40,877 nucleotides of DNA from Mariprofundus sp. Its GTDB lineage: Bacteria; Pseudomonadota; Zetaproteobacteria; Mariprofundales; Mariprofundaceae. Made by a program: the position numbers and the translations under genes. The stretch lies in the NCBI GenBank assembly GCA_030951025.1, contig JAUZQK010000019.1, forward strand, positions 1 to 40,877, read 5' to 3'. Below the pieces are notes generated by a model. The model worked only from the letters and a program-made list of their open reading frames with translations, was not told the DNA's origin and did not search any database. Numbering within the stretch: the first letter of the stretch is position 1; each line of letters opens with the position of its first letter. This document shows positions 35,592 through 38,466 of the stretch, piece by piece.

Positions 35592-35628
35592 AACGCCGAA
35601 TCACTGCATGGCGCACTGATTCGGCGTT
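35592..35628 (-). terminator. Rho-independent terminator of the cupredoxin-FTR1 operon
   Basis: AACGCCGAATCA and TGATTCGGCGTT form a perfect 12-bp stem with a 13-nt loop. On the minus strand the stem runs into seven Ts, so it ends transcripts of the iron permease gene; it may also stop the convergent histidine kinase transcript. Confidence 0.88.
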
Positions 35629-35661: not shown

Positions 35662-37203
35662 TTAAAACTCATAAGACATCACAAATTTGACTGCTCCCTG
35701 CGGTGAGGCCGTGGTGAGTCCGAACAAATAGCCAAGCTCATAACCCAGCCCATTATGAAACTTGCCCGTCAGTACCGGGCCAAACTGATGTGACTGCTGA
35801 GCCAAAGGCTTGGTGTTGCCAATTTCTCCGAGTGACCCATATATTTCAAAGCCTGGCTCAAGATACCGTTTCCAGCGCCAATGACTCTTCCAACTATATT
35901 CTGCCGATGAATTCTTTTTCGCATTCGTCCCCAGCTCTTTTTTGCTGATTAAGTTGAGCGTATTGATCAATCGCCCAGTCTCTTTTTCGAGCAGTAGTTT
36001 GAATTCAAATGCATCCGGCTTATTCAATGAACCCTGGGGTATAATGTATTCAAGGTATAAAGCGGCATCCAAAAATCGTTCGCCTTGCTCAAATAGCTGA
36101 TAGATATTTTCCCATTTGAGTCCTTGATATGCAAATGCCTTGCCCGGCCTTTTTCTGAAGTCACCATAGATAGCTGTCAGCCAGCGATCAGTTACGCCAT
36201 ATTCCAGTTCAAATTGGTGCCGCGCATTGGTGTTCTTGGTTGGATCGGTATCGATGTCGTAATCGAGGTAATATTCAAATTCGACTTCTCCCTGTTCAAC
36301 GATAGGCGAATAAACTTTTTTCGCTTCTGCATCAACGGGCATCATCACTGCACTTGCTGCCAGCAGCGACACCACTGCAACGGATACGACAGCTTTTTTG
36401 GGCGCCCATTTTTGCAAACGAATTGCCAGCCATGTGAGTGAGAATACCAGTATGAATACCAGAACCTGCATACCACTTGGACGATCATCATAACCCATCA
36501 AGGCATGCAATAACTGCCCGATAATACTTTGCTGCGGAATGATAGCTGATGTATTCCAAAGACTCTGCCCCAAAGCAGGCAATTCATCGATCATCACCAG
36601 ATAAGCAACACCTTGTGATGCCATGCCCGCAGCCAACAATACAATCAAAAAGGTAATCACTGAAAACACATGTCGAATCGGCAAATGAATCAGGCTGCGA
36701 TACAAGATGACTGCAACACCCACGCCAAGAATCAGGCCGACCGCTGCTCCGCTAAGCATATTCACCGCACCACCGTTACTTGATGCAGCCACACCATGCA
36801 AAAACAAGACCACTTCAGAACCTTCTCTGGCTACGGCCAGCCCTACGACTGTGGCCAACATCCAGGCGGTTGATGTGTTGCCCTGCCCCTGCTGACAGAC
36901 TTGTTTAATTCGACCCGATATTTCTCGACCCTGTTTGCCCATCCAAATAGCAGTCCAGCTCATCAATAAGGCGGCTGATAACAGTACCGATGCATTGAAA
37001 AACTCCTGCCCCGTGCCTTGCATAGAAACGGCAATAAATTCGGCAAATACGGCCACAATCAATGCCGCGCACAAACCGCCAAACATGCCGCCATAAATCC
37101 AGCGTGCGCCAATATTCACCTCACGTGCCGCAGCTGTTGCAATGCCTACGACCAGCATCGCCTCCAATACTTCTCGAAATACAATAATTAATGTTGATAA
37201 CAT
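35662..37203 (-). CDS. FTR1-family iron permease fused to a C-terminal outer-membrane-barrel-like domain
   Basis: Residues 1-265 are an FTR1/EfeU-type iron permease with seven membrane helices and two glutamate motifs, REVLE (10-14) and REGSE (126-130), which bind iron in this family. The frame then continues without interruption. Residues 268-294 (KWAPKKAVVSVAVVSLL, ending PVDAEAKK) look like a complete signal peptide with an AxA cleavage site. Residues 295-513 are polar, with alternating beta-strand patterns (VEFEYYLDYD, HQFELEYGVTDRW, GYELGYLFGL) and a terminal Phe (FVMSYEF), as in outer-membrane barrels. EfeU normally ends near residue 270-280. AGAGGG lies 4 nt before the ATG. It follows the cupredoxin gene in a Fur-type operon. 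Confidence 0.9.
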   Translation of the reverse strand: MLSTLIIVFREVLEAMLVVGIATAAAREVNIGARWIYGGMFGGLCAALIVAVFAEFIAVSMQGTGQEFFNASVLLSAALLMSWTAIWMGKQGREISGRIKQVCQQGQGNTSTAWMLATVVGLAVAREGSEVVLFLHGVAASSNGGAVNMLSGAAVGLILGVGVAVILYRSLIHLPIRHVFSVITFLIVLLAAGMASQGVAYLVMIDELPALGQSLWNTSAIIPQQSIIGQLLHALMGYDDRPSGMQVLVFILVFSLTWLAIRLQKWAPKKAVVSVAVVSLLAASAVMMPVDAEAKKVYSPIVEQGEVEFEYYLDYDIDTDPTKNTNARHQFELEYGVTDRWLTAIYGDFRKRPGKAFAYQGLKWENIYQLFEQGERFLDAALYLEYIIPQGSLNKPDAFEFKLLLEKETGRLINTLNLISKKELGTNAKKNSSAEYSWKSHWRWKRYLEPGFEIYGSLGEIGNTKPLAQQSHQFGPVLTGKFHNGLGYELGYLFGLTTASPQGAVKFVMSYEF

Positions 37204-37240: not shown

Positions 37241-37609
37241 TTATTTAACCAGCAAGCGGCCTTGCGCTGTGGCCTCATTAAATTCGCCGAAAAAGGGGTA
37301 AATGCCGGCATCGAGTGGCGGTAAAAAAATGATGATTTTAGAATTTCCCGCAACGATTTTTTCACGGTTCAGTTCATAACTCTCGAATTCCTCAGGTGTG
37401 GCATCCTTATTGATGATAATTAAGCGATGCTTTTCTCCGGCTGTTACTTCCAGCTGCTGTGGAACAAAACGATGGTTTTCAATGATGATTTCATATTGAG
37501 CCGCACTCACCAAGCCGGGTAAAGCAGCTGTAAAACACAAGACTGCAAGCATCATCGCAGCTTTTTTGGACGATGGTATGATAGCCCTTGATATCGTTTT
37601 TATTGTCAT
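37241..37609 (-). CDS. Periplasmic cupredoxin-fold protein of the EfeO/FTR1-associated type
   Basis: This 122-residue protein has a signal peptide (hydrophobic MMLAVLCFTAALPGLVSA) and one cupredoxin domain: YEIIIENHRFVPQQLEVTAG, then DATPEEFESYELNREKIV and GIYPFFGEFNEATAQG. The PEEFES...REK...FFGEF pattern is that of cupredoxins that accompany FTR1 permeases, where they probably bind ferric or ferrous iron or copper before uptake. The classical Cys of blue-copper sites is absent, and the usual His after FFGEF is Asn. ATG 37609 is chosen because GGAG lies 6 nt upstream; the open frame further upstream runs through the Fur sites. The FTR1 gene follows 37 nt on. Confidence 0.88.
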   Translation of the reverse strand: MTIKTISRAIIPSSKKAAMMLAVLCFTAALPGLVSAAQYEIIIENHRFVPQQLEVTAGEKHRLIIINKDATPEEFESYELNREKIVAGNSKIIIFLPPLDAGIYPFFGEFNEATAQGRLLVK

Positions 37610-37620
37610 AATAGTCTCCA

Positions 37621-37680
37621 TGTTGCGAATGATAATGATTATCAATGCTGTGTCAATGATAATCATTATCATTCGCAACA
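37621..37680. promoter_or_regulatory. Double Fur box within a perfect 24-bp inverted repeat
   Basis: The arms 37621-37644 and 37657-37680 are exact reverse complements separated by 12 nt. Each arm contains a 6-1-6 Fur core, GATAATGATTATC on the left (37631-37643) and GATAATCATTATC on the right (37658-37670). The repeat lies between the divergent cupredoxin-FTR1 operon and the rubrerythrin-like gene and could repress both when iron is plentiful. It overlaps the region where the cupredoxin mRNA leader would lie. Confidence 0.88.
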
Positions 37681-37779
37681 AGACTACAACAGAGGCGGTG
37701 AAAGCCGCAGAGCCCGAACGGCTGAATCATGCCCTGAGCTGTACCATGCAAAAACGCCAAATCGGTGTATGATAAGCTG

Positions 37780-38466
37780 ATGGCGATCCTACATCATCCG
37801 CTCCTGCGAATTTTATACATCGCAGCCTTACTGACGATCAATGCCAGCACTGCCTTGCTCCATGCAAGTGAAAATCAACCGCTGCGCCACTATCCAGAGA
37901 CCATCGCTGTATTGAAAACGCTCTACCATTCGGAAAGCCTTGCGCATCAACGCTACCTGGCCTTTTCCCGTGTAGCCTTAAAAGAACAGCATGAAAATAT
38001 CGCTTATTTGTTTAAAGCGCTGGCTGAATCGGAAGCTATTCACGCCAGCAACTTCAAACGTATTCTCATCAGTCTGGGTGCAAATAATATTCCAACACGC
38101 ATCGCAACAGTTCAAACCGGAAGCACAAAAGCAAACCTGCGCTTTGCTACCGAGGTTGAACTGGCGGAAATCGATACCGAATATCCCCGTTACCTTCAAC
38201 GTATTAAACAGGAAAATCATACCGAAGCATTAAAGTACATCGACTACGGCTGGCATGCAGAAAGGCAACACCGAGAACTGATTAAGCAAATCAACAGCGC
38301 TACCGGATTTTTCTTTTCCATGCTGGTAAAACGCTTTCGCAAGCAATCCAACAGCTATTTTGTCAATCGGAATTGCGGTGCCACCGTTACACAATTACCC
38401 GAACAAAAATGCCCTGTTTGCCACAAGCCGATCAACACTTATTTCAAGGTCACAAAGCCGACATAG
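37780..38466 (+). CDS. Exported rubrerythrin/ferritin-like protein with a degenerate rubredoxin end
   Basis: This protein of about 228 residues has an N-terminal signal sequence (ILYIAALLTINASTALLHA) and a ferritin-like four-helix domain with di-iron-type glutamate motifs: YHSESLAHQRYLAF, LAESEAIHASNF (ExxH), ATEVELAEIDTEYP and WHAERQHREL (ExxH). The C-terminus (SYFVNRNCGATV, KCPVCHKP) is a rubredoxin-like knuckle in which the first Cys of the four is missing (NRNCG for CxxCG). Rubrerythrins act in peroxide reduction and iron handling and are usually cytoplasmic. It reads away from the double Fur box. The start could be this ATG or a GTG at 37765; neither has a ribosome site. Confidence 0.85.
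   Translation: MAILHHPLLRILYIAALLTINASTALLHASENQPLRHYPETIAVLKTLYHSESLAHQRYLAFSRVALKEQHENIAYLFKALAESEAIHASNFKRILISLGANNIPTRIATVQTGSTKANLRFATEVELAEIDTEYPRYLQRIKQENHTEALKYIDYGWHAERQHRELIKQINSATGFFFSMLVKRFRKQSNSYFVNRNCGATVTQLPEQKCPVCHKPINTYFKVTKPT

Follow-up and report, generated by a model that had tools for sequence, protein, structure and literature searches.

A single open reading frame in the window (the whole 40,877-nucleotide stretch of Mariprofundus DNA analysed here) encodes an FTR1-type iron permease joined, through a segment resembling a signal peptide, to a predicted beta-barrel of the outer-membrane type. We consider it probable that this protein is a Fur-regulated ferrous-iron uptake polyprotein spanning two membranes, its cleavage, the location of its products and iron conduction being inferred. 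The more specific proposal, that the one frame yields the FTR1 permease of the inner membrane together with a dedicated Fe2+ pore for the outer membrane, always at a ratio of 1:1, is held with less assurance, and we lean towards it only slightly. The features of the locus and the gene orders of its split counterparts are presented in Table 1.

Table 1. Features of the fused locus in the window and gene orders of split counterparts in other genomes
Feature	Position or locus	Strand	Basis
Fused gene encoding FTR1 permease, internal signal peptide and 12-stranded barrel (513 aa)	35662..37203	-	ORF, Pfam, conserved fusion
FTR1/EfeU-type permease (predicted), residues 1-265	36409..37203	-	Pfam PF03239 1.6e-28; NCBIfam EfeU 1.1e-37, below equivalog cut-off
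First REXXE motif, REVLE, residues 10-14	37162..37176	-	sequence; R, E, E invariant in fusions
Second REXXE motif, REGSE, residues 126-130	36814..36828	-	sequence; invariant in fusions
Putative internal signal peptide, residues 268-294; predicted cut AEA/KK after Ala294	36322..36402	-	Ala294 conservation; linker comparison
Predicted outer-membrane-type 12-stranded beta-barrel, residues 295-513 (mature)	35665..36321	-	AlphaFold2; Foldseek; inside/outside composition
FtrB-like periplasmic cupredoxin gene (putative), first of operon	37241..37609	-	Pfam Cupredoxin_1 1.7e-24; PDB 8vuk FtrB 7.6e-13
Fur-box cluster in an inverted repeat of 27 bp; overlaps a minus-strand promoter-like site (TTGACA/TATCAT)	37621..37680	.	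three matches
Hairpin with U-run just 3' of the fused gene, probable terminator	35592..35628	-	fold -26.6 kcal/mol, z -4.7
Split order cupredoxin-FTR1-barrel	L109, L112, L116, L117		
Split order cupredoxin-barrel-FTR1	L108		
Split order barrel-cupredoxin-FTR1	L053		
Split order FTR1-cupredoxin-barrel	L167, L168		

Identification and conservation of the fused gene

The fused gene is a single unbroken ORF that begins with ATG, and the plus strand across the same interval is rich in stop codons. The sequence-only reading of this DNA had described an uninterrupted 513-codon frame at 35662-37203 without giving its strand, and had assigned to it an FTR1 permease with the motifs REVLE and REGSE and a terminal Phe. 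The frame was recovered exactly as described, on the minus strand; the permease assignment is supported by the Pfam FTR1 match (residues 1-270, 1.6e-28, 100.3 bits against a cut-off of 25.3) together with both motifs, and Phe513 is the final residue. The REXXE residues R10, E11, E14, R126, E127, G128 and E130 were invariant across 16 fused proteins. The permease half scored below the cut-off of the NCBIfam EfeU equivalog NF041756 (130 bits versus 255; E 1.1e-37). Judged by its sequence, it is a complete FTR1 iron permease, iron transport being inferred. A second FTR1 of the same genome (C65, L001) falls in a separate solo clade of the FTR1 tree.

The fusion was observed in at least 24 distinct genomes from several bacterial classes, about 21 of them with complete ORFs of 511-528 aa. 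This count derives from named genomes together with phylum and class samples, which were searched with custom FTR1, cupredoxin and barrel profiles. Its hosts include the pure culture Mariprofundus sp. EBB-1 and several Mariprofundaceae MAGs, and further MAGs named as Beta-, Gamma- and Alphaproteobacteria, Chromatiales and Omnitrophota; the names given to MAGs are not necessarily reliable. When the C-terminal half was searched in relatives, eight other genomes yielded fused frames, 515-534 codons long between stops, and others yielded unfused barrel frames of about 240-290 codons, so that both the fusion and the separate homologues for which the sequence-only reading had proposed a search were found across genomes. 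In every case with available upstream sequence, a cupredoxin gene precedes the fusion. Across 17 fusions, the distances between permease halves closely track those between barrel halves (r = 0.90, a value reached in none of 2000 permutations), which indicates that the two were inherited together.

A stop or frameshift masked by an error of assembly or sequencing, which had been named as a result that would overturn the first interpretation, remains conceivable only in that the window belongs to a 163-contig assembly. The identical in-frame fusion occurs in independent assemblies, including that of the EBB-1 pure culture, and its conservation leaves this explanation with a negligible chance of being correct. 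Assembly error and chance were both rejected, as the in-frame fusion recurs in many independent assemblies.

Structure of the C-terminal domain

AlphaFold2 modelling of residues 295-513 (219 aa), with 47 relatives in the alignment, returned a 12-stranded up-and-down barrel with a mean pLDDT of 96.6 and a pTM of 0.89. A structure prediction of this region had been suggested from the letters alone, with a non-barrel fold counting against a released barrel; the predicted fold, the Foldseek matches and the residue composition instead indicate the outer-membrane type. Among solved structures, the best Foldseek matches were FapF chains, with TM scores up to 0.80 (query-normalised), followed by OmpG and porins. 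When the strand residues were assigned to the inside or outside of the barrel by their hydrophobicity, the interior of each sequence held on average 17.2 acidic residues and 8.0 basic ones, while the exterior was hydrophobic, with a mean of 19.1 aromatics and few charges. Four glutamates (E16, E91, E106 and E159, barrel numbering) are acidic in 94-98% of relatives, and the final residue of the barrel is Phe in 39 and Tyr in 2 of the 47 relatives. We infer that an acidic lumen of this kind suits a cation pore.

Searches of Pfam, NCBIfam and PDB sequences placed the barrel of the window in no family above cut-off. Pfam outer-membrane families were matched only below threshold, with Phenol_MetA_deg reaching 13.7 bits against a cut-off of 22. 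The assignment of the C-terminal domain as an outer-membrane-type barrel is inferred from the model, and its location in the outer membrane is likewise an inference.

The junction and its predicted cleavage

In the fused protein, FTR1 is followed by a lysine-rich linker, a short hydrophobic stretch ending in MMPVDAEA, and the beta-rich region. Residues 269-294, KKAVVSVAVVSLLAASAVMMPVDAEA, comprise a positive n-region, a hydrophobic core and then AEA; the signal-peptide-shaped segment with an AxA site noticed earlier at 268-294 therefore stands as a description of the sequence. Across positions 247-297 of 16 aligned fusions, Ala294, which occupies position -1 of the predicted cut, is the sole invariant column, and a YSP motif comes after it. 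The linkers of the fusions all carry a net positive charge ahead of a hydrophobic 12-mer with a mean hydropathy of 2.1-3.0. Of 22 junctions, 21 satisfy a simple signal-peptide rule; the rule fires inside FTR1 helices in all 22 proteins as well, and it was rejected as proof of a cut because of this lack of specificity. The case for cleavage therefore rests on conservation, on homology to the signal peptides of standalone barrels and on geometry.

The homology concerns L036 and, from M. ferrooxydans PV-1, L038, two standalone barrels that nest within the Mariprofundus fused clade with support of 100/100. Their N-termini are ordinary signal peptides that end SDAEA/KKIYSP and PADALA/RKVYSP (the slash marks the predicted cut), at the KIYSP/KVYSP motif shared with the fusions. 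With regard to geometry, the full-length model shows permease helices, a short helix at residues 271-286, low confidence at 282-300 and then the barrel, and is itself only moderate in quality (pLDDT 68.9, pTM 0.44). The tether that follows the h-region spans about 8 residues (about 3 nm), and the mature N-terminus already lies in the confident barrel model (pLDDT at least 96). On these models, a tether of this size falls short of crossing the periplasm to the outer membrane. Seven-helix FTR1/EfeU proteins are usually drawn with a cytoplasmic C-terminus, which is the orientation that a following signal peptide requires.

These observations bear directly on the possibility that the chain remains uncut, in which case the permease would keep the segment as its eighth transmembrane helix, with the barrel-shaped domain attached in the periplasm or inner membrane. 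Cleavage has not been demonstrated and the simple signal-peptide pattern is non-specific, so an attached domain cannot be dismissed outright. Nevertheless, a tether of this length could not reach the outer membrane, the lipid-facing surface of the barrel requires a membrane, and the invariant alanine at -1 along with the standalone signal peptides favours cutting; we consider an uncut chain very improbable. Release of the barrel by signal peptidase is strongly implied, because Ala294 is invariant, close relatives bear the corresponding segment as a true N-terminal signal peptide and the predicted tether is too short; the cut itself is inferred.

A different route to a separate barrel would be translation, wholly or partly, from an internal start in the linker, giving a product with its own signal peptide. 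Three fusions outside Mariprofundus offer candidates: in-frame ATG codons lie directly ahead of the signal peptide at codon 258 of L044 and codon 261 of L047 and L079, each with a GGAGG-like sequence a few bases upstream, and internal initiation may add to the barrel supply there. In the window, however, the lone candidate ahead of the signal peptide is TTG263, which has no Shine-Dalgarno sequence; no start codon is conserved at the linker among Mariprofundus relatives, and the complete fused-type FTR1 genes of the Mariprofundus clade all keep the barrel in frame. As a general route, internal initiation was rejected, given the absence of a Shine-Dalgarno-supported start in the window linker, and we regard it as an improbable source of the barrel here. 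Cleavage of one continuous chain remains the preferred reading.

Split and standalone counterparts

In other lineages, cupredoxin, FTR1 and barrel are encoded by separate adjoining genes, some with 4-bp overlaps, in the four orders given in Table 1; L172 is also a locus with the three as separate neighbours. Among 30 barrel loci sampled from one other class, 5 were fused, 5 lay beside FTR1 and cupredoxin, and 2 had cupredoxin only, while 18 of the 30 barrels had neither FTR1 nor cupredoxin within 1.5 kb flanks. Many barrels of the family thus have no FTR1 nearby, so that a role alongside FTR1 need not hold in every case. M. ferrooxydans PV-1 has the barrel alone (L038:4815-5660), its FTR1 being elsewhere in the genome.

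The barrel tree contains about 10 changes of fused state, or at least 5 when only well-supported branches are counted. No genuinely unfused gene falls within the Mariprofundus fused-type clade of the FTR1 tree, since L136 and L144 are fusions that read KQVYSP and L129 stops at a contig edge.

Several other arrangements were observed in these searches. In one family of another class, an FTR1-like gene whose first REXXE motif is degenerate (RELLP, RDTLP) sits between intact cupredoxin and barrel genes (L116:2992-3768, minus; L117:1740-2510, plus; L024:2196-2960, minus), perhaps encoding a changed transporter. The standalone barrels L018, L019 and L020 of other Mariprofundaceae adjoin a response-regulator-like gene and another that encodes a conserved, cytochrome c-like protein with CNSCHTMFP. 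A split module lies on NZ_CP044976.1, a Hydrogenophaga plasmid; its barrel gene (L149:4908-5657) is interrupted in each of the two plasmid copies by a TAG in frame, and the neighbours include dmeF and a TMEM165/GDT1 gene. The plasmid search returned nothing but this Hydrogenophaga split copy with its TAG-broken barrel.

The cupredoxin gene and regulation of the operon

The probable start of the cupredoxin gene is the ATG at 37609, as the predicted ORF start at 37681 would fall in the Fur boxes. The best solved relative of its product is FtrB of Brucella. The FtrB iron-site residues E84, E86 and E93 are kept in the window cupredoxin (EFES...REK), while the FtrB copper ligands are replaced (D118 by G, H121 by N); most fused-type cupredoxins read GEFN or GEFH in the copper-ligand region. 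Only Cupredoxin_1, without an M75 domain, was detected by Pfam. An iron-binding shuttle is better supported by these residues than a copper ferroxidase, and the oxidase step is left open because the FtrB copper ligands are missing.

Upstream of the cupredoxin gene, three Fur-box-like matches were observed where 0.04 were expected by chance. Most Mariprofundus relatives have similar Fur boxes ahead of their cupredoxin gene; matches were weak or absent in several non-Mariprofundus loci. The hairpin downstream of the fused gene was not among the results of a consensus scan. Given the Fur-box/promoter site upstream and the hairpin with its U-run downstream, the operon probably consists of two genes, the cupredoxin and the fusion. 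In the assembly, which is 92% complete, P19/FtrA (PF10634) was absent and no FeoB was found above cut-off.

Divergent from the Fur-box region, a gene at 37765-38466 (plus) encodes a rubrerythrin-like protein whose hydrophobic N-terminus looks exported. An extracytoplasmic rubrerythrin would be unusual.

Proposed mechanism

Under low iron, Fur would release the two-gene operon encoding the FtrB-like cupredoxin and the fusion. The FTR1 half would insert in the inner membrane and, by the topology inferred here, helix 7 would leave its end on the cytoplasmic side. From about residue 265 to 294, the linker rich in lysine and the short hydrophobic core would then act as an internal Sec signal peptide exporting the remaining chain, which signal peptidase I is predicted to cut after Ala294. 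Once freed, the chain of 219 residues would fold into a 12-stranded, internally acidic barrel in the outer membrane. This barrel would admit ferrous iron, the cupredoxin would bind it in the periplasm and FTR1 would move it into the cytoplasm, with both outer-membrane insertion and conduction being inferred. A single frame feeding both Gram-negative membranes would be an unusual way of setting the proportion between two proteins of the envelope. As iron oxidisers, the Mariprofundus hosts live amid Fe2+, and yet the operon is apparently under Fur-box control.

The cut barrel could also reach the outer membrane with another job, whether as a metal exporter, as a structural element or as a pore through which other substrates pass. 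Many of its relatives stand alone, some copies in Mariprofundaceae lie near a response regulator and a cytochrome-like gene, the Hydrogenophaga copy lies near dmeF and the TMEM165/GDT1 gene, and FapF, the nearest fold, secretes an amyloid protein. On the other hand, many lineages fuse the barrel with, or place it next to, FTR1 and an iron-binding-type cupredoxin, and Fur boxes link this branch of barrels to iron uptake. We therefore regard another function as unlikely, though less so than the alternatives at the junction, and retain ferrous-iron entry as the preferred role.

The passage of unchelated ferrous iron across the outer membrane is usually ascribed to general porins. If the proposal is correct, FTR1-type ferrous uptake in these bacteria has a dedicated outer-membrane entry channel and does not rely on them. 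In the accessible portions of the source papers, no outer-membrane component is named for FtrABCD (PMC11966278) and no outer-membrane partner for EfeUOB (PMC9174327). A barrel gene that repeatedly adjoins the permease gene, and is fused to it in many lineages, points directly, on genetic grounds, to such a partner and makes the question testable.

Comparison with known systems

The component parts are of known kinds. In our literature search, in which subscription papers were poorly covered, we could not find a description of an FTR1-barrel fusion, of an outer-membrane partner of FTR1 or of a two-membrane polyprotein of this type. A bacterial precedent for the processing is reportedly provided by FbcH, the cytochrome b/c1 precursor of Bradyrhizobium, a polyprotein that signal peptidase is said to split at a signal peptide within the chain. 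The FbcH products both remain in the inner membrane, whereas one product of the FTR1-barrel fusion would go to the outer membrane. The barrel shares its 12-stranded fold with FapF, but the identity is only 10-13% and no amyloid genes were seen in the neighbourhood, so that the likeness is one of fold only.

FtrABCD of Brucella and Bordetella is a ferrous transporter of unchelated Fe2+ that includes the FtrB cupredoxin and the FtrC permease (PMC11966278). The present system resembles it in combining an FTR1-family permease with a single-domain FtrB-type cupredoxin that has three iron-binding Glu residues. It differs in having no P19/FtrA in the assembly and no FtrD in the two-gene operon, in the replacement of the cupredoxin copper ligands, and in the fusion of the permease to an outer-membrane-type barrel. 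Its permease is of the EfeU type, as in EfeUOB, having seven helices and both REXXE motifs, and EfeO also carries a cupredoxin domain (PMC9174327). Unlike in EfeUOB, the cupredoxin here has no M75 domain and no EfeB-like gene adjoins; E. coli EfeU is only 276 aa long and has no barrel (PMC9174327). Finally, as far as the accessible part of the source describes it, Cyc2 is likewise a fusion with an outer-membrane barrel in iron-oxidising bacteria; it is a single outer-membrane protein of energy metabolism (PMC8406198), whereas the FTR1-barrel fusion would serve two membranes and probably functions in uptake.
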